A DNA stretch of 33,430 nucleotides. It comes from Parvularculaceae bacterium (GTDB lineage Bacteria > Pseudomonadota > Alphaproteobacteria > Caulobacterales > Parvularculaceae). The notes beneath the pieces were generated by a model. It had not been told where the DNA came from and searched no databases. It saw only the letters and a program-made list of their open reading frames with translations. Positions 2,920 through 31,998 of the stretch are shown in pieces. The position numbers and the translations under genes are program-made. How positions within the stretch are numbered: position 1 is the stretch's first letter; each line of letters opens with the position of its first letter. The stretch spans positions 1-33,430 of the forward strand of contig JAJFFW010000110.1 of NCBI GenBank assembly GCA_021776435.1. The letters are read 5' to 3'.

Positions 2920-5553
2920 ATGCGCAACGACGCTTCGCCCGACACCCCCGCCCCAAAACCGGTTCGCCTGGCCGATTATGCGCCGCCCGACTACTTGATC
3001 GATCATGTGGACCTCAACGTATCGCTCGACCCGGCGCGCACGATCATCAAGTCCCGACTGGTTATGCACCGCAGGTCGGGCGCTGACGTAGAGGCGCCGC
3101 TCGTCCTCAATGGAGAACACATAGAGCTAATCACATTGGCGCTCGACGCGGATCAGTATTCGCCGGAAAATTACGATGTCAGCGATACACTACTGACCAT
3201 TCGCGGGCTGCCTTCCGAATTCACCCTTGAGATTACGAGCGCCTGCGCACCGGAGGCGAATACGGCGCTTTCCGGCCTTTATTTGTCGAATGATATGTTC
3301 TGCACCCAGTGCGAGGCGGAAGGCTTCCGACGGATCACTTATTTCCTCGACCGGCCCGATGTGCTCGCACGCTATTCGGTGCGGATTGAAGCGGACAAAG
3401 CGCGCTATCCAGTGCTGCTCTCCAACGGCAATTTACTGGGTGGAAGCGATCTCAAAGACGGACGCCATTGGGTGCAGTGGTCTGATCCGCATCCAAAACC
3501 CGCTTATCTTTTCGCGCTGGTCGGCGGCGACCTGACTGCTGTCGAAGATGAATTCACGACGATGTCGGGTCGCAAAGTTGCGCTGAAAGTTTTTGTTCAA
3601 CCTCAGAACGCGGACAAATGCGGCTACACACTCGACGCATTGAAACGTGCGATGCGCTGGGACGAAGAGGTCTTCGGGCGCGAATATGATCTCGATATCT
3701 TCATGATCGTCGCCGTTGATCATTTTAATTTTGGCGCAATGGAGAACAAAGGCCTCAATATATTTAATTCGGCCTATGTGCTGGCGAGCCCGGATACGGC
3801 GACGGATATCGATTACGAGACAATCGAGTCCATTGTAGCGCATGAATATTTCCACAACTGGTCGGGCAATCGCGTCACCTGCCGGGACTGGTTTCAACTT
3901 TGCCTGAAAGAGGGTTTCACGGTCTTCCGCGATCAGGAATTCTCGGCTGATATGCGCTCAAGGCCCGTGCAGCGCATCAAGGATGTGCGGCGATTGTGGA
4001 GTCGACAATTCCCGGAAGATGCAGGCCCCCTCGCCCATCCAGCACGACCCGAAAGCTACATCACCATCGATAATTTTTATACGGCGACAGTCTATGAAAA
4101 AGGCGCCGAACTGGTTCGCATGATGAAGGCGTTGCTGGGACCGGAAAAATTCCGTAAAGCGACGGATCTCTATTTCTCAAGACATGACGGCCAGGCGGCG
4201 ACCGTCGAGAATTTCATCAAGGTGATGGAGGACGCAGGTCAGATCAACCTGACCCAGTTCCGCCGCTGGTATTCAGATGCAGGCACGCCAGAAATCACTG
4301 TCGAAGAAAGCTACAATCCAGCTGCACGCAGCTTCAGGGCAATTTTCAGCCAGAAGACCGCACCTACGCCGGGACAAGACGAGAAACCTCCCCGTCATAT
4401 GCCAGTCAAGATCGGTCTTTACGATGCCCAAAGCGGCGTTGTGATGACCGAGGAAACTCTCGAACTCACCCAAGACCGTCAAGAATTCAGGTTCGATGAT
4501 GTTGATGCAAAGCCTGTATTTTCAGTGTTTCAGGGCTTTTCCGCTCCGGTACGCATCAAGCGAGAGTTGAGCCTTACGGACAGGCTGGCGCTGTTCCGTC
4601 ATGATCGCGACCTCTTCAACAAATGGGCCCTTAGCTATGGGCTGTGGACGGATCTTTGCCTATCGGGCGCCGGAGCAATCCGGATCGATGACCGCGAAGC
4701 GGCTCTGCATGGATTCGCTGACGCGCTAAAAGCCTTATTGAGCGATGCTCAGGCGGACCCGGCGCTCGTCGCACAGATTTTATATGCCCCCAGCGAAGCC
4801 GAACTCGCGCGCCTCGCCAATGTGATCGACCCCGATGCAATTTCTGCAGCCCGAAACTCGGTTCGCGAACAGATCGCCCGGACCCTCAAAGGCCCGCTCC
4901 GCAATCTTTTTGAAGCGCTGAAATCCAACGCGCCGTATTCGCCAGATGCAGAACAGGCAGAGAAGCGCGCCCTTAAAAGGGCTGCTTTATCTTTGCTCGT
5001 GACATCTGGGGACTCTGCTCTTGCTTTTGAAGAGGCTCAATCCGCTACAAATATGACCGATGAAGCGGCGGCGACTGCCGCCCTCGCCGTCAGTAATGCT
5101 CCCGAACGCCAAGCGGCTCTGGAGCAATTCTATGATAAATGGAACGACGATCCGCTGGTCATTAATAAATGGCTGGCTTGGCGGGCCATGCGGCCAGGCG
5201 ACAAAGCGCTCGCCGATATCGAATCGCTGACTGCGCATGAATCCTTCGATATGAAGAACCCCAACAAGGTCCAGGCTCTTATCGGGGTGTTCGCCAGCGA
5301 AAACCTGGCAGGGTTTCATCGCGCAGACGGTGGCGGATATCGGTTCTTCTTCAACCGAATCATTGCCTTGGACGCCATCAACCCGCAGGTGGCGGCGCGT
5401 CTCCTCACCATTGTAGAAAGCTGGCGCAAGCTCGAAGGCGGTCGGCGAGCCCTCCTTGCCGCAGAGCTTAACCAATTGGCGGAACGTCAAAATCTCTCGC
5501 CAAATGTCTTTGAGATGGCGTCCCGGCTGTTGGGGGAAAATCCAGCGTCCTGA
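2920..5553 (+). CDS. pepN: Aminopeptidase N (M1 family metallopeptidase)
   Basis: This 877-residue protein has the length and layout of E. coli-type PepN (about 870 residues). It removes N-terminal residues from peptides in the cytoplasm during protein turnover. The substrate-anchoring motif GAMENKGLN starts near residue 271. The zinc site is HEYFHNW with H308, H312 and E331 (HExxH-18-E), with E309 as general base; Tyr392 (TATVYEKGAEL) matches the transition-state tyrosine. The beta-rich N-terminal domain and the long helical C-terminal domain (about 560-877) are both present and intact. There is no signal peptide. The ATG at 2920 has an AGGA about 8 bases upstream. The gene stands alone on the + strand between the NRPS and a histidine kinase, with no obvious functional link to either. 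Confidence 0.96.
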   Translation: MRNDASPDTPAPKPVRLADYAPPDYLIDHVDLNVSLDPARTIIKSRLVMHRRSGADVEAPLVLNGEHIELITLALDADQYSPENYDVSDTLLTIRGLPSEFTLEITSACAPEANTALSGLYLSNDMFCTQCEAEGFRRITYFLDRPDVLARYSVRIEADKARYPVLLSNGNLLGGSDLKDGRHWVQWSDPHPKPAYLFALVGGDLTAVEDEFTTMSGRKVALKVFVQPQNADKCGYTLDALKRAMRWDEEVFGREYDLDIFMIVAVDHFNFGAMENKGLNIFNSAYVLASPDTATDIDYETIESIVAHEYFHNWSGNRVTCRDWFQLCLKEGFTVFRDQEFSADMRSRPVQRIKDVRRLWSRQFPEDAGPLAHPARPESYITIDNFYTATVYEKGAELVRMMKALLGPEKFRKATDLYFSRHDGQAATVENFIKVMEDAGQINLTQFRRWYSDAGTPEITVEESYNPAARSFRAIFSQKTAPTPGQDEKPPRHMPVKIGLYDAQSGVVMTEETLELTQDRQEFRFDDVDAKPVFSVFQGFSAPVRIKRELSLTDRLALFRHDRDLFNKWALSYGLWTDLCLSGAGAIRIDDREAALHGFADALKALLSDAQADPALVAQILYAPSEAELARLANVIDPDAISAARNSVREQIARTLKGPLRNLFEALKSNAPYSPDAEQAEKRALKRAALSLLVTSGDSALAFEEAQSATNMTDEAAATAALAVSNAPERQAALEQFYDKWNDDPLVINKWLAWRAMRPGDKALADIESLTAHESFDMKNPNKVQALIGVFASENLAGFHRADGGGYRFFFNRIIALDAINPQVAARLLTIVESWRKLEGGRRALLAAELNQLAERQNLSPNVFEMASRLLGENPAS

Positions 5554-9608: not shown

Positions 9609-10052
9609 CTACTTCTTCTCGTGTCCACGACGGTGATGGCCCTTACCGTGATGGCCTTGACCGTGATGAGCGCGCATTTCATCCTTACTCAACACACCGT
9701 CACCATCTTTATCGAGGCGGTCAAACCGTTCTCCGGCGGCTTCAATATACTCGCTCCGATCGACGACACCATCGCCATTGGAATCACCGGATCGCTTTTG
9801 CATATGCTCCGCACGGCGCGCAATATGGAATGCTTCCATTTCTTCGCGCGTAATTGCGCCATCTCCATCCCCATCCGCTTTGGCAAAAAAGTCTGCATGT
9901 TTCGCGTTCATTTCATCGGCAGTAATCTTGCCATCGCCATTGGCGTCGAGTTGGTCCCATTGACCATGGCCTTTACCATGGTCAGCCGCTTGCGCGCTGG
10001 CTGCGACGACGCCAATACCGATTACGGATAAGATAATAGCAAAGTTTCTCAT
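9609..10052 (-). CDS. Secreted EF-hand protein with His-rich C-terminus
   Basis: The protein has 147 residues. A signal peptide (MRNFAIILSVIGIGVVAASAQA) is followed by four EF-hand loops: DANGDGKITADE, DGDGDGAITREE, DSNGDGVVDRSE and DKDGDGVLSKDE. It ends in a His/Gly/Lys-rich tail (HHGQGHHGKGHHRRGHEKK). It probably binds Ca2+ through the loops and transition metals through the histidines, in the periplasm. The ATG at 10052 is chosen because AGGAG lies 6 bases upstream and the signal peptide begins there. The tail is encoded by imperfect 15-bp tandem units (about 9631-9675). It lies 72 bases upstream of the sigma-factor gene and may be part of the same metal or envelope stress response. Confidence 0.9.
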   Translation of the reverse strand: MRNFAIILSVIGIGVVAASAQAADHGKGHGQWDQLDANGDGKITADEMNAKHADFFAKADGDGDGAITREEMEAFHIARRAEHMQKRSGDSNGDGVVDRSEYIEAAGERFDRLDKDGDGVLSKDEMRAHHGQGHHGKGHHRRGHEKK

Positions 10053-10094
10053 AAATTCTCCTGTTGTTTTCAATTCGTGTTTTCCTTAAACGCA

Positions 10095-11261
10095 TCATCG
10101 GCGCGTTTCCGTCGCTTGATCGAGATTTTCGCGATAAGTTAGCGCCAGTAGGCGTTCCGGGGTCTCAAAGAGACTGGCCGCGAGCCGACGCCCATCAACG
10201 CTCACCATAGAGACCTCAAGTGTTTTTCTCAATGCGGCGGGAGCCAGATCAGCAAAGGCGACAACACGTTTTAGATGGGGCGAAAATGCGCTCGAAGTAA
10301 TGCGCCCAACTGGTTTCCCCGCAGCGAACACCGCCGCGCCAGGCGCAGCATAATCGGCATCAATAGCCAGGACGGTCACCGCACGTCGCCGCGCGCCCTT
10401 CGGATGTTTCAGAGCGCTACGGCCATTAAACCAACCCCGGTCGAGCGGCGCCAGGTGAGACAACCCCAACTCTGCCGGTCGCCTGACGCCGGCGTCCGAG
10501 AATGCATATTCAGCCGAGATGAAGTCAGTACCCGGGCGCGGAACGCCAGCTTCAATGCGCAACAGGTCGAATGCATCAAGACCAATAGGCGCCGGTTTGC
10601 TGGAACGGTCAATCCGTTCCCAGATCGTCAATGCCTCTTCCATAGGAAAGATCAATTCGATGCAATCATTTCGCCCGAGATGAAATGGGCGCGCAACAAT
10701 TTCCACACCGCGCATTCTGCCCTGCGCTGCAAGATGATCACTCTTTACATCAATGCCGATAGCGGAGACGGCTTTGCGCCAATCTGGGCCAATCAATCCA
10801 ATTATAGCCACTTCGCCAGTGATATCCTTTACCTCGACATCAAATCCACGGGCGGCAAGTCTTAATCTTCGGGCATGAGGATGCGTCATGGCCATAAGAA
10901 AGAAATCGTCAGACAGGTTCGTCGTCTCAACATGATCGATCACTTCGCCTTCATCGCTCAAGATCAACCCGCGAGCACTTTCCCCCAATTCAAGACTGCT
11001 TGCAGGAACACTCGTCGCACGTGAGAGCATCGTCCCCGCATCTTTTCCTCGTATGGAATAACGAGCGATCGCTCCCATATCAAGAACCGCCACGCGGTGA
11101 GACGCGGCTTCGTATTCTTCTTCAATCGATGTGTAAAGCCGAGCTGTTGTCCATCCGTTGACGGATGTCCACACATTCGCTTTGCTTACCGATGCGGCCG
11201 CAGAGAAAAGCGGCGTCGGCCTTGGGTTATCCGATTTCAGATCTTCTGCTGCGAAAATCAC
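10095..11261 (-). CDS. GcvT-like aminomethyltransferase-family (folate-binding) protein
   Basis: This 388-residue protein follows the two-domain pattern of the glycine-cleavage T-protein family: an N-terminal region with VAVLDMGAIARYSIRGKDA, a central DAFDLLRIEAGVPRPGTD, and a C-terminal barrel with GKPVGRITSSAFSPHLKR. Family members move one-carbon units from methylamine-type substrates to tetrahydrofolate; some are only folate-dependent accessory proteins. It is not near gcvH or gcvP, so it is unlikely to be the glycine-cleavage T protein itself. The start is GTG at 11261, overlapping the stop of the FAD oxidoreductase gene by 4 bases. This coupling suggests that it receives a one-carbon unit released by that oxidoreductase, as in sarcosine and dimethylglycine oxidases; that is inference. 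Confidence 0.78.
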   Translation of the reverse strand: MIFAAEDLKSDNPRPTPLFSAAASVSKANVWTSVNGWTTARLYTSIEEEYEAASHRVAVLDMGAIARYSIRGKDAGTMLSRATSVPASSLELGESARGLILSDEGEVIDHVETTNLSDDFFLMAMTHPHARRLRLAARGFDVEVKDITGEVAIIGLIGPDWRKAVSAIGIDVKSDHLAAQGRMRGVEIVARPFHLGRNDCIELIFPMEEALTIWERIDRSSKPAPIGLDAFDLLRIEAGVPRPGTDFISAEYAFSDAGVRRPAELGLSHLAPLDRGWFNGRSALKHPKGARRRAVTVLAIDADYAAPGAAVFAAGKPVGRITSSAFSPHLKRVVAFADLAPAALRKTLEVSMVSVDGRRLAASLFETPERLLALTYRENLDQATETRR

Positions 11262-24319: not shown

Positions 24320-25234
24320 TTAAACGCCAGCGAACCGCTTACGCGGGGAATGGGCTTTTCCGGCCTTCCAGTTTTTGACAAACTCTTCAAGCTCTGCATC
24401 GCTAGCATCGGGAAGCATGATCTTCAATTTTACATATTGGTCGCCCGCTTTTCCGTCTCGACCAATGGGCGCACCGCGTCCACGCAAACGCAGGACGATC
24501 CCCGAGCTGGCCCCTTTCGGCGTCGTCACCGAAACATCGCCTGAGATTGTCGGCACCGTGATTTTCCCTCCAAGGACAGCTTCACGCAACGAAATGGGCG
24601 CTTCGATATGAATATCGGCGCCGTTGCGTTCGAATATGGCGTGCGGCTTGACTTTGACTTCCACATAAACGTCACCCGACGCAGCACCCCCTGTGCCGGG
24701 TTCGCCCTGTCCGCGCAGGCGCAATGTCTGGCCATCCTCAAATCCGGGCGGCACCGCCAGATCGAGCGTTCGCCCATCAGGCATGGTGACCCGTTTTTTG
24801 GCGCCGGCGGCAGCATCGAGAAACTCCACCTCAAGGCGATAGCGGAGATCGCGACCGCGTGCAGCGGCCGTGCGTCGGGAGCCAAACAGATCGGAAAAAA
24901 TATCGCCAAGGTCATCGAACGAGGCGCCAGCCCCTGGTCCGCCAGCGCCCGTATGCTGGCCGCCGGCGTGTTGGCGATTGGCCCAGGCGCCGTAAGCGGC
25001 GCTGCGTTCGCGGCCATCCTCGTCAATTTCACCGCGGTCGAAGCGCTTGCGCTGTTCTGAATCACCGAGAATATCGAACGCGCCGGAGACTTCCTTGAAC
25101 TTCTCCTCGGCTTTCTTGTTGCCGGGATTGCGGTCGGGATGATGCTCCTTGGCGAGCCTGCGAAAGGCGGCGCGAATGTCAGTGTCGCTGGCCGTCGGGG
25201 ACAGGCCCAATACGAGATAAGGGTTCCTCGCCAA
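24320..25234 (-). CDS. DnaJ-type co-chaperone (CbpA-like: J domain plus C-terminal peptide-binding domains)
   Basis: This 304-residue protein has an N-terminal J domain with His32-Pro33-Asp34 (KEHHPDRNPG), a Gly/Ala-rich linker (about 78-110, GGQHTGAGGPGAG) ending in FDDLGDIFSDLFG, and the two beta-barrel C-terminal domains (RLEVEFLDAAAGAKKRV and VKVKPHAIFERNGADI). The zinc-finger CXXCXGXG repeats of true DnaJ are absent, so it is CbpA/DjlB-like. It would stimulate DnaK ATPase activity and bind unfolded clients in the cytoplasm. The start is TTG at 25234, with GAGGG upstream. It is the first host gene beyond the gene-transfer-agent cluster. Confidence 0.94.
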   Translation of the reverse strand: MARNPYLVLGLSPTASDTDIRAAFRRLAKEHHPDRNPGNKKAEEKFKEVSGAFDILGDSEQRKRFDRGEIDEDGRERSAAYGAWANRQHAGGQHTGAGGPGAGASFDDLGDIFSDLFGSRRTAAARGRDLRYRLEVEFLDAAAGAKKRVTMPDGRTLDLAVPPGFEDGQTLRLRGQGEPGTGGAASGDVYVEVKVKPHAIFERNGADIHIEAPISLREAVLGGKITVPTISGDVSVTTPKGASSGIVLRLRGRGAPIGRDGKAGDQYVKLKIMLPDASDAELEEFVKNWKAGKAHSPRKRFAGV

Positions 25235-25404
25235 TTCGTTTCATTCCCTCGCTGCAACACGTCGCGCGCGTCACTCCGTCAAATAATGGAATTTGACGCA
25301 AAAAGAAGAGCTTACCGTTAATTTAGTAGCGCCCCTCAGGTTTGGCGAGGAGAGATTTGCTACCATCTGATTTCATTCAGTTTTTCAGTTTGAAGAAATC
25401 GCCG
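25235..25404. other. Non-coding stretch next to the orphan gp15 tail
   Basis: The gene-free interval from 25235 to 25575 holds the orphan gp15 tail (25405-25515) and otherwise little. A 12-bp perfect inverted repeat, ATCTGATTTCAT (25365-25376) and ATGAAATCAGAT (25412-25423), lies partly inside that tail with a 35-base loop. No tRNA, promoter or attachment-site gene was seen in 25235-25404 or 25516-25575. Confidence 0.5.
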
Positions 25405-25515
25405 TTAAAAGATGAAATCAGATTTCGACTCAACGCCTTCGCCGACCAAATCAGAAATCTGACAGACGGCGAAGCCATCGGACGCCGCCGGTCCCGCTGG
25501 GCCGAGCGATATTAA
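25405..25515 (-). pseudogene. Orphan C-terminal tail of a GTA gp15-like gene
   Basis: This minus-strand frame of 36 codons ending in TAA has no start codon. It aligns with the last residues of the intact gp15 protein encoded 2 kb upstream: both have GPAGP, then nine residues, then Q(L/I)SD(V/L)VGEG, then ESK and a short end. The spacing between GPAGP and Q is identical. Codons differ at most positions outside the shared 18-bp block, so this is a diverged tail and not a recent duplication. A TGA lies directly upstream in frame. It is either the fossil of the resident gp15 3' end, displaced when new DNA entered here, or an exchangeable alternative tail. Confidence 0.75.
25488..25505 (+). repeat. 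18-bp direct repeat, copy in the orphan gp15 tail
   Basis: CCGGTCCCGCTGGGCCGA occurs here and again at 27502-27519 inside the intact gp15 gene, in the same orientation and the same gp15 reading frame (codons for FGPAGP or LGPAGP on the minus strand). Confidence 0.9.
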
Positions 25516-25575
25516 TCAAAAATTCCCAACCCCCTTTTTGAGACGCCCGGAATATCGAACTCAGCTGTCAAATTT

Positions 25576-27309
25576 TCAATTTGCTCGCAACAATTTAATA
25601 AGACGGGCAGCCACTGGAGGCTCAATATCCGACAGAACTTGTGCACCACAATCATCGAGATATCCGGATTTACCGCCCCACAATATGCCAGCCCGTGGGG
25701 CGCGTACAAATGGTACGCCAGCTTCTTGAAGGCTTGCGTCAAGCGTATCCAATCGATCCAGAAATTCGGGTGTCCGCTCTTCATGCCACAAAACCTCAAC
25801 GGAAAACTTACCGGTTTTTTTTAACCGATAGCCAACACCAAGCTTGGCGACCTCGTCATCATCAGCATCAAATCTAAAGCATCTGAGTTCAACGCGATCC
25901 ACATCGCCAAGCTCCACCTGTGTCTCCCAAGGTTCCAAATACCGCGAGTAATGAATGCCCTCGGTATGCACAATCTGGAACCAGCGAATATCTGCCGTTG
26001 TAAAAATTATTGTCATCAACCCCAAAAACATCGTCGTCCGGTAGACCAGACCAGCGCGTTCGCGAAAAGCCTGGTATAGAAAATCACCAGGAAGAAATTC
26101 TTCTTTCACGTCGAGACGGCGCAAACGCACAAATCGCGTAAGAATTTTGAGATGATCTCCCGCAGTCCGATCACTGGAGCTCATACTGTTCCAGCCTGCT
26201 TTCGCCTGAAGATATTGCGCAAGCAATATGTGGCTGCCGCCTATCCACTGAATAGTCGCCCAACCGATCGCTACGCCGAAGAAAAACGCCGCCGCCAGGC
26301 CGCCGAAAAAAGCCGGCCCGTTTTGAACAAGAACATTCAACCCTTCGAGCCGAGCCGCCACCGCGTGGGTAAACATGTATTCCTCAAAAAAATATAAAAG
26401 AAATGGCGCCGCTAACATCGTTGTTATCGGCAGCGCCACGAAGGCGACCAAAGCTATTCGCGGAAACACGCCAAAGGATTTATTCTTCAGATAATCCAGA
26501 ATAGCTTGCAGGCCATCCGCCAGATAACGGCGCTCTTGGTCATTTAGAGCGCGATTCACGTCATCGGACTGTCCAAGGTCGCTCTTGGCAGAGAAGGTCG
26601 TAAAGATCGCCTGAATTATGTAGACGCTCCCGAGAACGACAACGTAGGCTGCTATTATCGGCCATTGCTCAGAAAAGGCAGTAATTAACGATTTCCCGAT
26701 ACGGGCAAAACTAATGACAGCGTCGTCGAAAATGACCATCTGCAGCAATTTGCCATAGAGAAATATTAGCGTGATGATCAAAATCACTGCCGAGATATAA
26801 AGGGCGACCCCAAAAATAGATTTAATCAGGCCGCCAGCGCCTGGCGATTCTATTTTCCAAATATCAGGTCTGATGAGGGGATAAAAATCTTCATTATCAT
26901 CAAGTCCCTCATCAACACGGTCGTTTTCGCCATTATTGAGCGATGCCGATTCTTCGCCAGCGCCGTCATCAGGCTGGGTGAATAATTGACCAAGGTTAAA
27001 TGACCCGACTACAGAAAATATCAACGTCCAGAGATGCTCAATCTGCCCGGCAAATATTGCGCAGCCACCAATCCAAAAATTTATCCCAGCGAGATAAAAC
27101 GCCAATAACAAAACAAAGCGCGCATTTTCGCGCGAGCGAGCGACAAGCAAGGATGTAACGCCCGTCAGAATAAAATGAAATTGCAGCAACCGAAATGAAT
27201 CCGATGTCGGCGCCTGCTCAATAACGATGAAAGGGATGTGGGCAAGAGTAAGCCCCGCCACAATCAACACTATGCCTAGCAGTCCATTTAATCCACGAAT
27301 CCAGCTCAC
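25576..27309 (-). CDS. Polytopic membrane protein of unknown function
   Basis: I do not recognise this 577-residue protein. It has about nine predicted transmembrane helices (near 8-30, 41-58, 64-82, 92-110, 163-186, 215-237, 282-308, 333-356 and 421-439). A strongly acidic loop lies at about 112-145 (EESASLNN, VDEGLDDNEDF), and a soluble C-terminal domain of about 130 residues (440-577) has a repeated beta-strand pattern. The start is GTG at 27309 without a good ribosome site. Codon use looks more AT-rich than in the neighbours, which suggests acquired DNA. It sits between the intact gp15 gene and an orphan gp15 tail, so it appears to be cargo inserted at the end of the gene-transfer-agent cluster. 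It is not one of the known GTA structural genes. Confidence 0.8.
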   Translation of the reverse strand: MSWIRGLNGLLGIVLIVAGLTLAHIPFIVIEQAPTSDSFRLLQFHFILTGVTSLLVARSRENARFVLLLAFYLAGINFWIGGCAIFAGQIEHLWTLIFSVVGSFNLGQLFTQPDDGAGEESASLNNGENDRVDEGLDDNEDFYPLIRPDIWKIESPGAGGLIKSIFGVALYISAVILIITLIFLYGKLLQMVIFDDAVISFARIGKSLITAFSEQWPIIAAYVVVLGSVYIIQAIFTTFSAKSDLGQSDDVNRALNDQERRYLADGLQAILDYLKNKSFGVFPRIALVAFVALPITTMLAAPFLLYFFEEYMFTHAVAARLEGLNVLVQNGPAFFGGLAAAFFFGVAIGWATIQWIGGSHILLAQYLQAKAGWNSMSSSDRTAGDHLKILTRFVRLRRLDVKEEFLPGDFLYQAFRERAGLVYRTTMFLGLMTIIFTTADIRWFQIVHTEGIHYSRYLEPWETQVELGDVDRVELRCFRFDADDDEVAKLGVGYRLKKTGKFSVEVLWHEERTPEFLDRLDTLDASLQEAGVPFVRAPRAGILWGGKSGYLDDCGAQVLSDIEPPVAARLIKLLRAN

Positions 27310-27415
27310 TTGCTGCGCCCCCGCTCGGCAATTTTCTTATAACGAAATTGGTTCAAAGAACGGAACAGATATAAAGGGATGCTGTCAACATGAGCGTTCT
27401 CAAATATTGTTGTAA

Positions 27416-30400
27416 TCATGCGATTTTTACTTCTGATTTTTTACTCTCCCCTTCCCCCACAACATCGGAGAGCTGAGCGATTGATAACGTCAGGCTTTCG
27501 CCCGGTCCCGCTGGGCCGAAGTCGGTGAGGATGTCTGCAGCGGCATACAGAAAATCGGGCGACGCGGTTTCGACGGTGCGGATCAACGTGGGAACGCCGT
27601 TGATGTCGTCATAAATTTTAACCCGGTACCGCTCAAAGGCTTCGCCGAGCGGAACGTCTTCCCCCTCCCAGCTATCGCCGCCGATGCGGGTGCGGCGGAT
27701 CCACAAAAGCCGGATGTCACCGCCCTCCTGACGGGCCCGTACATGAACCGGCGACAGCGGCTTCAAACCGCGCGCCTGAAAAACAAGGGCGCGGGACGTG
27801 AAATTGGCGCCGCCCGGCAATTCGTCTTCGGGGCCTGCCGACCAGTCAAAAGAAATGCCGCGCAGATCAACCGGGAAACTTGCCTGCTCAACAGCCGGGG
27901 TCAGAGCGATAAACCGGGCGCCGATTGCGGCCCCGGCCAAAGCCTGCGCTTCGCTCCCCGCCTGCCCGCGCAATAACCCGCTCAACGTCCAGGCGCCGTC
28001 CGGCTCAAGGGTCGCGGTCTCGAATTGCGCGACTTCCCAATCGCCATCAGCGGACTGAACGGCAAAGGCATTGGCGCCCGCCAGAACCTCGATCCGGTCG
28101 CGCGCCGCCAGTGCGCCAAAGGAAAGCCTTACACGGACGGGTTTTTGATCCCACCGCCCCGAGGCGCCCGGCGCAAGCGCCGTCTCTAACCGGCCCATAA
28201 TCGCACGCGCCGATGCAGTCGCAGTTAAAGACGGCGCGGGAGATTGCGCACTGGCGCCCATCTCCCGGTAAAGCGCAACGCCCCCCGGCCACGGATCAGC
28301 GAACGCCGCCAGCCAGGGCCGTGACGGATCGGCGGTCGTATCAAACAGCGGCAATTCAAACAATTCCCAGACAGGCGCAGTGAACACCGCTTGCGCTGGC
28401 GGCGCTTTGAAAGCCAACCCGCCCACCGGCGCCGCATAGACCGATGGCGAAACACGCACCGCCTCAACCGTACGCGCCGCCGCGTCGGTAATTTCAGTGA
28501 TACGATACCGGCGAGACACACCGGACGCGGAAAACAGCACACTATCGCCCGGTTCGACATCCAGCATCGCAGGCGGCAGGACCAGTCCGATGGTCTCTCG
28601 CATCACCCACGCGTCAGCGAGAATGGAACGCGCCCGCGCTTCCGCCTCACCAACCGGCAGGACGACTGGAATTTCGACCCCGGTCTCGCGAGCAGGACGG
28701 GCGCCGGGATCACGCACTTCAACCACCGCCGGAGAGAAATCGGCGCCTTCATCAAGAAAGCCTAGCCGAAAAGCCGACGGCAGGTCGGCCTCCTGCATCA
28801 GCGTCACGGAAAATGCAGCCCCCTTTCGAACGGCGAGGTCGTTCTCGTTCAAGATGTAATCGGGTTCGCTGTTACGCGCCTGAAACCGCAGCGTCGCCGC
28901 CGTTTCGACCATGTCGAATTGAAACACATCCGCTAACGGATCGATCATTTCACGCGCGCTCATCGGCCGGTCGATGACATAGCCGGTGATCAATCCCTGA
29001 AGTCTGTTGGCGTCAACATTCGTAAACCCGGTCTCCGCCGCCAGCGCCGTCACCAGAAGATCAAGCGGCGCGCGCCCAAGCCGTCCGGTCAGCCAATGGC
29101 CTTTTTCCCAATTCTCGGCGTCGCCCCAGACATCGCTGCGAGCCGGAAAGTCGGGAAAGGGGCGCGCATCCCAGGCGTAAATATAGATCTGGCCATCATC
29201 GATCATCGCCGCGCCAGTAAGCGTAGAAATCGGATTATTGACGCCGTCACGCCAATATTGCGCTTGCGCTTCAATCAGACGACGCTGGGCAAGATCATCG
29301 CGGGCGCCGGATGAATAAAACGGCAGGGCGCTTTCGGCGCTCTTCGCATCGACAAAAACATTCGGTTGATTGGCGCCTTTGTCGACAGCAGGACAGCCGG
29401 ATTCCGTAAAGACGATCGGTTTTGATTGCGGCGTCCACAGGGTGGCGTTCGTGGCCCGCACACCGCCAGGCCGATCATGATGGGCATTCTCCCACCACCC
29501 GCGTAAATCCTTATAGCGAAAGACCCAGTCCTCGCCATAAGCGCCGTCACTGATCGGCGACCGGGCTTGCGCATCGCGGTCGGCCTGAGAGGCGTAAAAC
29601 CAGTCATATCCCTCGCCGCCTTCAATATTGGATTTCAAATAGGCGCAGTCATAAGGGCCCGCCGCGCCGCCAAGCGCATCGAGATGCGCAAACCCATCGC
29701 GCCAATCGGCGAGCGGCATATAATTATCGACGCCGATAAAATCCACATTGGCGTCAGCCCAGAACGGATCGAGATGAAAGAATACGTCGCCCGTCCCGTC
29801 CGCAGGCTGATGACCAAAATATTCTGACCAATCGGCGCCGTAGGAAATCTTGGTTGAGGGACCGAGAACAGCGCGCACGTCAGCGCCAAGAGTTTGCATC
29901 GCGGCAATCGCCGGATACGCAGTCGCGCTTGACCGTGCGGTGGTGACATCGCGCAGCTCAGAGCCAATAAGGAAATTATCAACGCCGCCCGCCAGCGCAC
30001 ACAGATGCGCGTAATGCAAGATCATCCGCCGGAACGACCACTCCGCTGGCCCCGCATAAGTGACGGCGCCGGCGCCGGGCGAAAAGTCAGTGACAGCGGC
30101 GGATCCGAAAAACTGGGCGATGTCTAAGGCCGCAGTCGCAGTCTTGTCATTGGCGCCAACGCTGATCCGTCCACGCCACGGATACGCCGCCTGCTCACCG
30201 CCGCCAGAAGGGTTGGGCAAGCCATTGCCCGGAGCAATGTCCATCAAAATGAACGGATGAAACATCACCTTGAGGCCGCGTTGGTTCATCTCGACGATGG
30301 CCTCGATCACCGCTTTATCGGACGGTGTGCCGCCAAACGCCGACGCGGCGCCGATCTGGCTGATGAGATGGGCTTGCGCGCGCGTCGCACCCCCACCCTG

Positions 30401-31348
30401 CCAATCATACGGCGTGGTGATTTTATCGGGGGTTTCGACCCCCGGACGGAGTTGACAGACCCCGGCGCGCAAATCATCGCCAAACCACGAAACAACCAGC
30501 GAGACAGATTGGACATTCGGCGCCGCCGACTGCAACGCATCAAGCGAAGCGACAAAGTCAGTCTGACCTGAATTATTGTGAACATTCTCGGAAACCGTCA
30601 CGCCCTCCCCGACGACCCGTGAGACCTTGCTGGTTCCGTACACAAACTCGCCCGAGCCAGGGATGAGATTGACCGCAGTGATTGCGTTCTCCATGACATT
30701 CGGATCGGTCTGGCGCAGGCTCTTTTCAATCTCGAAGGATAGCTGGGGAATGCGGTTGCCGAAATCTTTCAACAGCAGATCCTCGAAGACGATATAAGCC
30801 AGCCCCCGAAAAGCAGGCGCACCATTGGCGCCTTCGGTGGCTTCAATCAACGGATCGGGAAGCTGGGTTTCCGCCCCTTTGTGGACGCGGATCGTATGTT
30901 TGGATAAATCGATCGGTTTTCCATCCGCCCAGACGCGGCCGATGCGATCAATCTCGCCTTCACACAAACCTACGGCGAATGAAATGGAATAGAGAAATTC
31001 CGTCAGCGTTGTTTTGGTGCGCGCCCGCCCACCCTTGCCGCCGGATGACTCGGTGGTCTCCGACACGGTTTCCTTGAAATTCGCCGCCCAGATGACCTGT
31101 CCCGAGACCCGCGCCCGGCCGAAAACCCGCAAGATCGGCGCGCCTTCGGTGGAGGCTTGCACAGAAAAACTTTGAAGCCGGGGGCCTGTGACTTTGCGCT
31201 TATGCGGACCGAAGATCAGCCGGTCGGCCTGGCCGGCGGCGAAGGCAGCCGCGGTTGTCGCAGCGGTGCGCGCCAGAAAGGCGCCAATTCCCGCACGGCC
31301 GGCGGCGGATACGGCGCCCGTTGCGGCGGTTAAAATCAATTGGGCCAT
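27416..31348 (-). CDS. GTA gp15-like tail-tip/host-specificity protein (TIM-barrel megatron)
   Basis: This 1310-residue protein matches the last structural gene of the Rhodobacter-type GTA (Rcc01698). An N-terminal hydrophobic Ala/Gly-rich stretch (about 1-40) precedes phage-tail domains, then a glycoside-hydrolase-like TIM barrel (about 350-700) with Glu464 (LIGSELRDV) and Glu649 (FTESGCPA) as a possible catalytic pair, then further tail domains up to the end motif AQLSDVVGEG. It would form the tail tip that contacts the recipient envelope. The ATG at 31348 is chosen because GGGAG lies 8 bases upstream; the open frame before it belongs to gp14 DNA. It overlaps gp14 by 13 bases. The gene is intact, although a second diverged tail lies downstream. 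Confidence 0.93.
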   Translation of the reverse strand: MAQLILTAATGAVSAAGRAGIGAFLARTAATTAAAFAAGQADRLIFGPHKRKVTGPRLQSFSVQASTEGAPILRVFGRARVSGQVIWAANFKETVSETTESSGGKGGRARTKTTLTEFLYSISFAVGLCEGEIDRIGRVWADGKPIDLSKHTIRVHKGAETQLPDPLIEATEGANGAPAFRGLAYIVFEDLLLKDFGNRIPQLSFEIEKSLRQTDPNVMENAITAVNLIPGSGEFVYGTSKVSRVVGEGVTVSENVHNNSGQTDFVASLDALQSAAPNVQSVSLVVSWFGDDLRAGVCQLRPGVETPDKITTPYDWQGGGATRAQAHLISQIGAASAFGGTPSDKAVIEAIVEMNQRGLKVMFHPFILMDIAPGNGLPNPSGGGEQAAYPWRGRISVGANDKTATAALDIAQFFGSAAVTDFSPGAGAVTYAGPAEWSFRRMILHYAHLCALAGGVDNFLIGSELRDVTTARSSATAYPAIAAMQTLGADVRAVLGPSTKISYGADWSEYFGHQPADGTGDVFFHLDPFWADANVDFIGVDNYMPLADWRDGFAHLDALGGAAGPYDCAYLKSNIEGGEGYDWFYASQADRDAQARSPISDGAYGEDWVFRYKDLRGWWENAHHDRPGGVRATNATLWTPQSKPIVFTESGCPAVDKGANQPNVFVDAKSAESALPFYSSGARDDLAQRRLIEAQAQYWRDGVNNPISTLTGAAMIDDGQIYIYAWDARPFPDFPARSDVWGDAENWEKGHWLTGRLGRAPLDLLVTALAAETGFTNVDANRLQGLITGYVIDRPMSAREMIDPLADVFQFDMVETAATLRFQARNSEPDYILNENDLAVRKGAAFSVTLMQEADLPSAFRLGFLDEGADFSPAVVEVRDPGARPARETGVEIPVVLPVGEAEARARSILADAWVMRETIGLVLPPAMLDVEPGDSVLFSASGVSRRYRITEITDAAARTVEAVRVSPSVYAAPVGGLAFKAPPAQAVFTAPVWELFELPLFDTTADPSRPWLAAFADPWPGGVALYREMGASAQSPAPSLTATASARAIMGRLETALAPGASGRWDQKPVRVRLSFGALAARDRIEVLAGANAFAVQSADGDWEVAQFETATLEPDGAWTLSGLLRGQAGSEAQALAGAAIGARFIALTPAVEQASFPVDLRGISFDWSAGPEDELPGGANFTSRALVFQARGLKPLSPVHVRARQEGGDIRLLWIRRTRIGGDSWEGEDVPLGEAFERYRVKIYDDINGVPTLIRTVETASPDFLYAAADILTDFGPAGPGESLTLSIAQLSDVVGEGESKKSEVKIA
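27502..27519 (+). repeat. 18-bp direct repeat, copy in the intact gp15 gene
   Basis: This is the partner of the repeat at 25488-25505. The two copies are 2014 bases apart and bracket the gp15 end, the gap and the whole membrane-protein gene. Homologous or site-specific recombination between them would delete that segment and join gp15 in frame to the orphan tail. Confidence 0.9.
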
Positions 31349-31998
31349 TCGTCTGCTCCCGGAAAGATAAATACGCCAGCAAGACGCGATAACCACCAGC
31401 GATAAAGCCAGCTCTCGCACACATGACGGCCGGCATAGGCATGAATGAATCGATCTGGCGCGCTCATGATCCCGCAATGTTTGGCTGGCCCGTCAGCGGC
31501 GACTCGAAAGATCAGCACGTCACCCGGTTTTGCGTCTGCATGAAGGCGCTCGGCCATATTGCGCTGCGCGGCGCCGAGAAGCGGTTCATCGCCACGACGC
31601 TCGTTCCAGTCCGGCGTATAAGGCGGCGGGATTTCCGGCTCGCCGCCATAGAGTTCGCGCCAGACACCGCGCACCAGACCGAGGCAATCGGCGCCGGCGC
31701 CTTTGGCGCTGGCCTGATGAACATAGGGCGTATTGATCCAATCCCGGGCGGCGCGGATGATTTCGTCTCTCGCAATCGCTCGCCCCTCAGCCCATCCTTC
31801 GCGACGCAGACCTTCAGTCTGCTCCTCAGGATGAGGATTTTCTTTGCTGCAACAAACAACGCCCTCATCCTGAGGCGCCCGGCCCCCGTCCTTCGAGGCT
31901 CCCCCGGATTTAATCCGGGGTCGCACCTCAGGATGAGGGGGCCGGGCCTCGAAGGATCGCGAAACGTTCCGCATCGGAAATTCGGCTTGCCGCGTCAT
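31336..31998 (-). CDS. GTA gp14-like NlpC/P60 cell-wall peptidase with repeat-encoded N-terminal insert
   Basis: This 220-residue protein corresponds to the GTA peptidase (Rcc01697). The NlpC/P60 domain runs from about residue 78 to the end, with catalytic Cys105 (AGADCLGLVRGVW), His174 (KHCGIM) and a third polar residue, probably His186. It would cut peptidoglycan during DNA entry. The ATG at 31998 overlaps the gp13 stop (ATGA). Residues of about 15-70 (HPEVRPRIKSGG, RAPQDEG, HPEEQTEGLRREG) are the translation of palindromic repeat elements and are foreign to the family, whose members normally start close to the equivalent of RDEIIRAARDWI. No ATG, GTG or TTG occurs in frame between the insert and the domain, so the insert is probably translated. 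Confidence 0.88.
   Translation of the reverse strand: MTRQAEFPMRNVSRSFEARPPHPEVRPRIKSGGASKDGGRAPQDEGVVCCSKENPHPEEQTEGLRREGWAEGRAIARDEIIRAARDWINTPYVHQASAKGAGADCLGLVRGVWRELYGGEPEIPPPYTPDWNERRGDEPLLGAAQRNMAERLHADAKPGDVLIFRVAADGPAKHCGIMSAPDRFIHAYAGRHVCESWLYRWWLSRLAGVFIFPGADEWPN
31791..31836. repeat. Palindromic repeat element A inside gp14
   Basis: Arms CCCATCCT (31791-31798) and AGGATGAG (from 31828) enclose GCAGAC (31806-31811) and GTCTGC (31817-31822). It shares the 13-mer CCTCAGGATGAGG with element B. Repeats of this CCTCATCCTGAGG type are widely dispersed in alphaproteobacterial genomes, by recollection. Confidence 0.85.
31862..31939. repeat. Palindromic repeat element B inside gp14
   Basis: A perfect 14-bp inverted repeat, CCCTCATCCTGAGG (31862-31875) and CCTCAGGATGAGGG (31926-31939), encloses an inner palindrome around CCCCGGATTTAATCCGGGG. 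A further partial copy (CCTCGAAGGATCGCG) follows up to about 31962. All of this lies in frame in the gp14 coding sequence. Confidence 0.9.

Follow-up and report, generated by a model that had tools for sequence, protein, structure and literature searches.

A second, diverged gp15 end, probably the displaced original, downstream of the megatron gene in a Parvularculaceae gene transfer agent locus

The usual picture of gene transfer agent (GTA) clusters is one of phage genes that have been domesticated and conserved. In the case of prophage e14 in icd, the element's copy replaces the end of the host gene, and the original end is left as an orphan. According to the cited portions of Jackson et al. 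(2009; PMC2935791), an incoming gene end in Rhs loci displaces the attached one, the old end persists farther downstream, preceded by a repeat whose length varies, and a circular intermediate with a single crossover has been proposed. The cited portions of Kirchberger et al. (2017; PMC5361080) describe Vibrio T6SS effector-immunity arrays in which new pairs of genes are inserted after a conserved anchor, older material shifts downstream, and 3' ends of earlier genes persist together with orphaned small genes. In RcGTA, the C-terminal domain of the megatron binds the tail fibre (PMC7296036, in the part considered here).

The window, by which we mean the whole 33,430-nucleotide stretch of Parvularculaceae DNA that was analyzed, carries gp15, the GTA megatron (baseplate multidomain protein), as an intact minus-strand frame of 1353 codons at 27416..31477, counted from the tool-listed TTG. 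The gene matches NCBIfam model NF048004 (GTA_megatron) with 1655 bits (cut-off, 800) over model positions 1-1297 of 1299. Consecutive minus-strand genes match TIGR02217, TIGR02218, TIGR02219, and NF048004 in the order distal tail, hub, peptidase, megatron, the TIGR02217 match being partial and below cut-off (117.7 versus 136.65) for a gene at the contig end (33430). Judged from the genes alone, by its full-length family match and the tail-gene order, the window's gp15 is an RcGTA-type megatron. In family and order, the final tail genes agree with those of RcGTA, after which the hub (g13) and megatron (g15) are named (PMC7296036, same part). The locus departs from an RcGTA-type cluster in carrying additional genes in the gp15-dnaJ interval, and relatives also have them between gp13 and gp14. 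The dnaJ-like gene (24320..25234, minus strand; Pfam DnaJ and DnaJ_C) is the common right-hand neighbor of gp15 in our gap survey, and the block AAATTAACGGTAAGCTCTTC upstream of it (25305..25324, minus strand) looks similar, by eye, in many clade relatives.

The initial annotation had placed a second, diverged gp15 C-terminus at 25405-25515, with the intact gp15 ending at 27416 and a 577-residue gene between them, and its coordinates are right. The minus strand at 25405..25515 (36 codons and a stop) translates to LISLGPAGPAASDGFAVCQISDLVGEGVESKSDFIF, gp15-like from 25505 down, and gp15 itself ends in GPAGPGESLTLSIAQLSDVVGEGESKKSEVKIA, each followed by the stop. Local alignment of the 87-residue end of gp15 to the 2181-nt gp15-dnaJ gap scored 82, against a maximum of 49 among 300 dinucleotide shuffles, and among 57 loci with >1500 nt downstream, scores of >41 occurred solely in the four loci with repeated tails. 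The orphan tail was also recovered in a search of the window's own genome (E = 9.4e-4), and chance similarity is ruled out by the shuffles and this whole-genome search. The 36-residue fragment alone had no NCBIfam match at E up to 10, which we attribute to its short length, but when set in register behind gp15 it added 10.7 bits to the megatron score (193.0 versus 182.3 bits). The match reached model position 1272 without a tail, 1296 with the orphan, and 1297 with the current tail (196.9 bits), out of a model length of 1299. Ten shuffled tails gave 182.0 to 184.2 bits, a gain of at most 1.9, and extended to position 1292 at most; none of the 10 reached 193.0. Shuffles and in-register gain together confirm that 25405-25515 encodes a diverged gp15 C-terminus. 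Both tails fit the megatron profile, and the copied end is conserved.

The similarity opens with an exact 18-nt repeat that codes GPAGP in frame, shared by the two gp15 ends; one copy lies inside gp15 (27502..27519) and the other, 2014 nt away, at the start of the orphan's similarity (25488..25505, both on the minus strand). Past the repeat, 41 of 78 nt differ, and the sequences upstream of it show little similarity (13 matches in 60 nt); the mismatch counts within and past the repeat (0/18 versus 41/78) give a Fisher p of 1e-5, post hoc. The statement that most codons differ thus holds past the first 18 nt, where the next 25 codons include only 4 identical ones, but not within them, where five codons running agree. 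A similar gradient is seen in a related genome, G001, whose orphan gp15 tail opens with 28 identical nt and has 1 difference in the first 38 columns and many later (p = 1e-4, post hoc). Across genomes, the border repeats measure 18, about 28, 111, and 194 nt, G005 having no exact core, and their start points are unlike among the window, G001, G005, and G070. Because the repeats vary in both position and length, no single mechanism is proved. The 18-nt identity was chosen post hoc, and any local similarity must start at some match. Direct repeats were rejected as a sole signature, since over 97 regions (882,873 nt) they are also present away from gp13 and gp15 ends, with the strongest of all among these; repeats as such are therefore not special to gp15.

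The gene between the two ends (25576..27309, minus strand, 577 codons) encodes a multi-pass membrane protein with 7 hydrophobic segments by hydropathy scan. It has no match in Pfam, NCBIfam, PHROGs, or PDB sequences and none among phage records, and its best value against PADLOC was E 0.03; on viral contigs, no relatives of it or of the coiled-coil cargo described below were confirmed. Its predicted structure is unusable (mean pLDDT, 44). As the one large gene of the 2-kb insert, it matches no recombinase, toxin, immunity, or defence family at a significant level in Pfam, NCBIfam, PHROGs, or PADLOC. Relatives with 34-35% identity adjoin gp15 in G001 and in a further genome, G068.

The analogy with Rhs systems drawn by the initial annotation is a good one where mechanism is concerned, as far as the cited portions of PMC2935791 and PMC5361080 go. 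As in those systems, a second gene end lies downstream of an intact gene with another gene between, and what we take to be the old end stands behind a repeat of the attached one. Unlike Rhs, in which the end itself is variable, the window has a conserved structural tail as its end and a varying separate gene behind it, and its repeat is 18 nt where Rhs has a long core. Unlike the T6SS arrays, the window has a GTA baseplate gene as its anchor and, as its cargo, a single membrane protein that lacks a recognized partner; what would have been displaced is a structural tail, and the intervening gene has no significant toxin, immunity, or defence match. The likeness to e14 in icd lies in a replaced gene end and an original left as an orphan, but the insert is only 2 kb, has no recombinase match, and shares no core with the other, independent insertions.

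Second gp15 tails were found in 4 of 59 Parvularculaceae loci (the window, G001, G005, and G070), and gp13 had a second tail in 2 of 30 (G001 and G015), against 0 of 51 for dnaJ. The gp14 control yielded one nominal match in 31, in G023 (48% over 29 residues, arginine-rich, E = 6e-4), which was judged spurious. As the search of other genomes suggested by the initial annotation showed, the layout of tail end, cargo gene, and orphan tail recurs with different genes between. In G001 the cargo is a HicA-type gene, a DUF1902 gene, and a small membrane gene; in G005, a PEGA-like protein below the family cut-off; and in G070 and G015, a coiled-coil gene with a small membrane open reading frame. The 194-nt repeat of G070 is 97.9% identical, and the two genes behind its copies are ∼35% identical. 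In two of the four genomes with orphan tails, gp15 or its cluster appears truncated. Named-genome gp15 loci were retrieved with an alignment query in place of the window's single gp15 end, which had found nothing in these genomes; 79 of 80 were considered, L209 being excluded with a match that runs to the locus end. Among those unmatched to Parvularculaceae, 0 of 55 had a second tail at E<1e-5. Matches in L166, L190, and L198 (E 6e-4 to 0.005) were judged spurious.

We conclude that the orphan is probably gp15's old ending, displaced when DNA with a new tail and the membrane gene recombined in. The ancestral gp15 would have ended in the now-orphan tail, about 170 nt before dnaJ. Incoming foreign DNA, comprising the 3' end of another gp15 and the membrane-protein gene, would have recombined with the resident gp15 at or near the identical 18-nt patch coding GPAGP, perhaps by a single crossover there. 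The product would read, in order, resident gp15 up to the patch, foreign tail and stop (27416..27501, minus strand), membrane gene, patch again, and the resident's old tail, and the gp15 frame would stay whole because the incoming DNA carries its own tail. The surroundings of dnaJ are consistent with this reading. Outside the window's clade, gp15 commonly stands beside dnaJ with no large gap (24 of 25 genomes, at distances of 37-263 nt), as a comparison proposed by the initial annotation brought out, and gaps of >500 nt occur in 26 of 29 clade genomes versus 1 of 25 others. The 170 nt from orphan to dnaJ in the window resemble the whole gp15-dnaJ gap of the three clade members that have no large insert (162, 206, and 234 nt). 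Comparison of the tails, by contrast, favors neither order of the two copies. Among the matches listed (28 of 59 tails, in stretches of ∼30 residues), the current tail outscores the orphan against 17 of 20 tails from g2, the genus that contains Marinicaulis, and the orphan outscores the current tail against 6 tails from g4 and g6. From the two membrane-gene relatives, we would guess at a Marinicaulis-like donor; the vehicle may have been transformation or the GTA itself.

Homology-facilitated illegitimate recombination, in which one end of a linear fragment recombines in gp15 and the other joins the resident tail without homology, is a real if lesser possibility. It gives the same product as displacement by crossover at the patch, with a different joint. 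Such a process has been proposed for the analogous T6SS arrays (cited portions of PMC5361080), and the orphans do begin at differing points of the tail, as expected from an unspecific second joint; the perfectly identical orphan starts in the window and G001, however, better fit a crossover at a short patch. Moreover, in a sliding comparison over segments of ∼110 residues, the window's gp15 shared at most 61-82% of residues per segment with any relative compared, so that such a donor would pair poorly over long homologous stretches. That comparison had no clear import breakpoint, a point against the reading we prefer; G001 or G068, the carriers of the membrane-gene relatives, were the best match in 4 of 16 segments but not in the last (gp15 of G068 is on its contig for the last segments only). 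An old tandem duplication of the gp15 end, followed by insertion of the membrane gene and divergence of the copies by drift, is simple and requires no donor of a gp15 tail. We nevertheless regard it as unlikely, as it leaves unexplained an exact 18 nt next to 41 of 78 differing nt and the occurrence at the ends of two tail genes (gp13 and gp15) but at none of the 51 dnaJ ends; the strongly different genes behind near-identical repeats in G070 are likewise unlike plain tandem duplication.

Still less probable, in our view, is that a small element integrated site-specifically at the gp15 3' end and brought a replacement gene end with it. An exact short in-frame core at both borders and a substitute 3' end would suit it, but the insert's one gene matches no recombinase or other family, and the core at the borders falls at one position of the gene in the window and at another in G001, so that the two have no attachment site in common. 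Finally, like the members of Rhs tip arrays, the orphan could be a silent alternative end that is swapped back into gp15 and so varies how the tail fibre attaches. The orphan is in frame with the 18-nt patch, patch-to-patch recombination would yield a gp15 with the other end, and the part of PMC7296036 cited above places tail fibre binding in this domain. We nonetheless find this explanation highly improbable. The tail shows conservation and not variability, few loci have an orphan (4 of 59), two of these four genomes have a gp15 or a GTA cluster that seems truncated, and the repeat is short for recombination to be efficient. The idea of the initial annotation that the tail tip is diversified is unsupported, as a conserved end was copied, both copies fit the profile, there is no sign of orphan use, and it is the neighboring gene that the insertion alters, with no choice of tips on offer; layout, recurrence, gp15-dnaJ state, and Rhs-like mechanism are supported.

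Displaced gene ends or cassettes of this kind in GTA loci are not described among the matches listed in the open-access GTA literature on insertion, hotspot, cargo, effector, toxin, and duplication, and a term search of one GTA genomics paper (PMC9836097) returned nothing relevant on insertions within the cluster. Recurrent insertion at two baseplate gene ends suggests that left-over ends record how genes enter GTA clusters without breakage, and if GTA-borne DNA recombines there, the particle would reshape its own locus. We put forward tentatively, and with considerable doubt, a broader view in which Parvularculaceae gp13 and gp15 ends are landing sites for small exchangeable cassettes with their own gene-end copies, displaced as in Rhs, CDI, and T6SS loci, the window's membrane gene being another passenger. 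The recurring coiled-coil gene and, on the opposite strand, the gene for a membrane protein of two or three helices would then encode a toxin-immunity-like pair tied to GTA expression. Marinicaulis flavus SY-3-19 (L160) has such a coiled-coil gene at L160:11195-11734, faced by a membrane gene. This speculative reading of the related cargo, if the two are toxin and immunity protein, would link GTA production to competition between kin. A search of the coiled-coil model against the PDB returned generic coiled coils, none at E below 0.001, and the predicted structure itself consists of two long helices (mean pLDDT, 68).

The window is contig 13 in a genome of 142 contigs, and its gp15 (positions 27416 to 31477, minus strand) is a full-length GTA megatron by the family profile. 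The 2.18 kb separating gp15 from dnaJ (24320 to 25234, minus strand) hold a 577-codon membrane-protein gene (25576 to 27309, minus strand) and, last, a 36-codon fragment (25405 to 25515, minus strand). Local alignment of the gp15 end with this gap scored 82, compared with a maximum of 49 from 300 dinucleotide shuffles, and a whole-genome search with the gp15 end returned the fragment as the second match, on the same strand (E = 9.4e-4). When the fragment was placed behind gp15 at the common repeat, the megatron profile match rose from 182.3 to 193.0 bits and extended, in register, from position 1272 to 1296 of 1299; the current tail reached 196.9 bits in the same test, and shuffled tails put in the same place (n = 10) gave 182.0 to 184.2 bits. 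Judged by sequence, the fragment is a gp15 end, confirming the gp15-tail repeat that the initial annotation had placed downstream of the intact gene. Our working view is that the membrane gene is a passenger, read through from gp15. A perfect 12-nt inverted repeat (25365 to 25376 and 25412 to 25423) flanks the orphan's stop; the minus strand there has a predicted fold of -23.5 kcal/mol (z, -1.9) and is possibly a terminator.

Both tail copies contain the same 18 nt (27502 to 27519 and 25488 to 25505), coding GPAGP in frame. Similarity upstream of this patch is slight (13 of 60 nt match); downstream, 41 of 78 nt differ, yet 10 of the first 25 residues are identical. The orphan gp15 tail of a relative, G001, is perfectly identical to that genome's own current tail over its first 28 nt and diverges afterwards; these border tests, in the window and G001, were post hoc, picked with data already seen.

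The closest searchable relatives are Parvularculaceae, with named gp15 loci that include Marinicaulis flavus, Amphiplicatus metriothermophilus, and Parvularcula dongshanensis. From matches in 61 and 62 genomes we picked 60 gp15 loci and searched 59 of them, up to 7 kb downstream, with all tails, the remaining one having no downstream sequence left. Second tails were found in 4/59 loci, those of the window, G001, G005, and G070. At E < 1e-5, only the G001 and G005 records had one among the 79 of 80 named loci tested with their own tails (24 of them matching family-set contigs in length, 55 not). Three weaker matches in named loci, two of them in those 55, had E values of 6e-4 to 0.005 and seem spurious. 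dnaJ was not seen in 6 of the 60 loci, one being a second match in G013 that is possibly not the GTA gene.

Other gene ends were searched similarly. Second tails of the hub gene gp13 occurred in 2/30 (G001 and G015) and of dnaJ in 0/51; the single gp14 candidate (1/31) was a weak arginine-rich match and was not counted. At the gp13-gp14 junctions of G015 (L115) and G001 (L117), orphan gp13 tails lie behind inserted genes in the layout seen at gp15. The intact gp13 of G015 ends immediately before the inserted gene, and the stop of its orphan tail overlaps the gp14 start by sequence reading, as gp13 and gp14 do in the window; the orphan is therefore the copy in the ordinary gp13-gp14 junction.

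The genes between the tails differ. At gp15, G001 holds a HicA-type gene preceded by a DUF1902 gene, with a small membrane gene on the opposite strand, and a gene related to the membrane gene of the window follows its orphan tail; G005 holds a PEGA-like protein on the opposite strand, under the family cutoff; and G070 holds a coiled-coil gene together with a small membrane open reading frame (ORF). At gp13, a small membrane ORF lies between the tails in G001 (repeat of 111 nt, 94.6% identical), and a coiled-coil gene plus a small membrane ORF in G015. In G068, the membrane gene stands directly behind gp15, and no orphan tail was found downstream.

Among genomes with gp15 and dnaJ on one contig, the gap exceeded 500 nt in 26/29 of the window's clade (genera g1, g2, g4, and g6) and in 1/25 others. 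The window's orphan-to-dnaJ distance, 170 nt, approximates the whole gp15-dnaJ gap of G015, G076, and G063 (162, 206, and 234 nt), and many of the clade's genomes have, by eye, a similar block upstream of dnaJ. In all three g4 genomes examined (L040, L041, and L047), the gap is occupied by a gene of 668 to 692 codons that we call histidine kinase-like from its sequence by eye.

We consider it probable that an incoming gp15 end with a passenger gene displaced the old gp15 end. The orphan tail would formerly have been the end of gp15; recombination at or near the short identical patch would have brought in the DNA carrying the new end and passenger, leaving the old end behind. GTA particles or transformation would be our guess for the vehicle; RcGTA is reported to transfer fragments of ∼4.5 kb that integrate through allelic replacement (PMC9690577). 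A single crossover of a circle, as proposed for Rhs (PMC2935791), may have made the window's layout and is favored by the exact 18-nt patch. One-sided homologous recombination with an illegitimate joint, as proposed for T6SS arrays (PMC5361080), is a possible but doubtful route, favored by the differing start points of the repeats between genomes.

Counting against displacement, a sliding comparison of the window's gp15 with relatives gave no clear breakpoint, the tail comparison was ambiguous, and direct repeats occur elsewhere in the surveyed regions too. Plain tandem duplication of the gp15 end is unlikely and fits G070 poorly: there, the 194-nt repeat is 97.9% identical and takes in codons 1 to 22 of the coiled-coil gene, but the two coiled-coil genes are ∼35% identical overall. 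Site-specific integration at the gp15 3' end, lacking a recombinase match and a common core, is very unlikely. The comparison of the layout to Rhs/CdiA in the initial annotation was partly right: tail end, gene, and orphan tail recur in relatives, and the suggested tail-tip diversification was not supported. The window case would be a variant of a known displacement process, in a GTA setting; among the open-access GTA papers that our searches listed, we found no report of displaced gene ends in GTA loci.

The gp15 match of G005 (L119) begins only at residue 543, behind genes that by eye are mrp antiporter-like, and G070 (L137) has a fragment, terminase-like by eye, and then the last part of gp15. 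The GTA looks broken in both, so their inserts say little on GTA function. G005 (L039) also carries a 260-nt direct repeat, 97% identical, with copies 6.8 kb apart and away from GTA gene ends (reverse complement 3183 to 3442 and 9942 to 10201).

The coiled-coil family (∼180 residues; six members aligned) starts with motifs like MRSNEFTGATLEEAVRKATAVY and usually lies opposite a small membrane gene (L092 of G070, L097 to L104, and others), behind gp15, between gp13 and gp14, or elsewhere, e.g., beside an sdhA-like gene (by eye). It was detected in 13/299 genomes of the order, the window's not among them, and in 1/385 of the class. We examined 14 of 18 matches, leaving out half of a split gene, 25- and 51-residue remnants, and a weak match; a scripted scan found a facing ORF with at least two hydrophobic segments within 700 nt in 11/14. 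Outside those 11, G073:C230 has a facing ORF resembling a membrane protein, the second copy in G070 faces an ORF with one hydrophobic segment only, and in G085:C300 the hydrophobic ORF shares the coiled-coil gene's strand. Where the gp13-gp14 gap exceeded 200 nt, 8/9 genomes held a minus-strand ORF with at least two hydrophobic segments. Because the toxin and membrane immunity genes of pore-forming colicins face each other, we speculate that these pairs may be toxin-immunity-like. Family searches gave no toxin match supporting this reading, and two distant coiled-coil homologs in G303 have no clear facing membrane gene. In L108 (G065:C19), the match is confined to the family's 25-residue start, which leads into a nonfamily reading frame.
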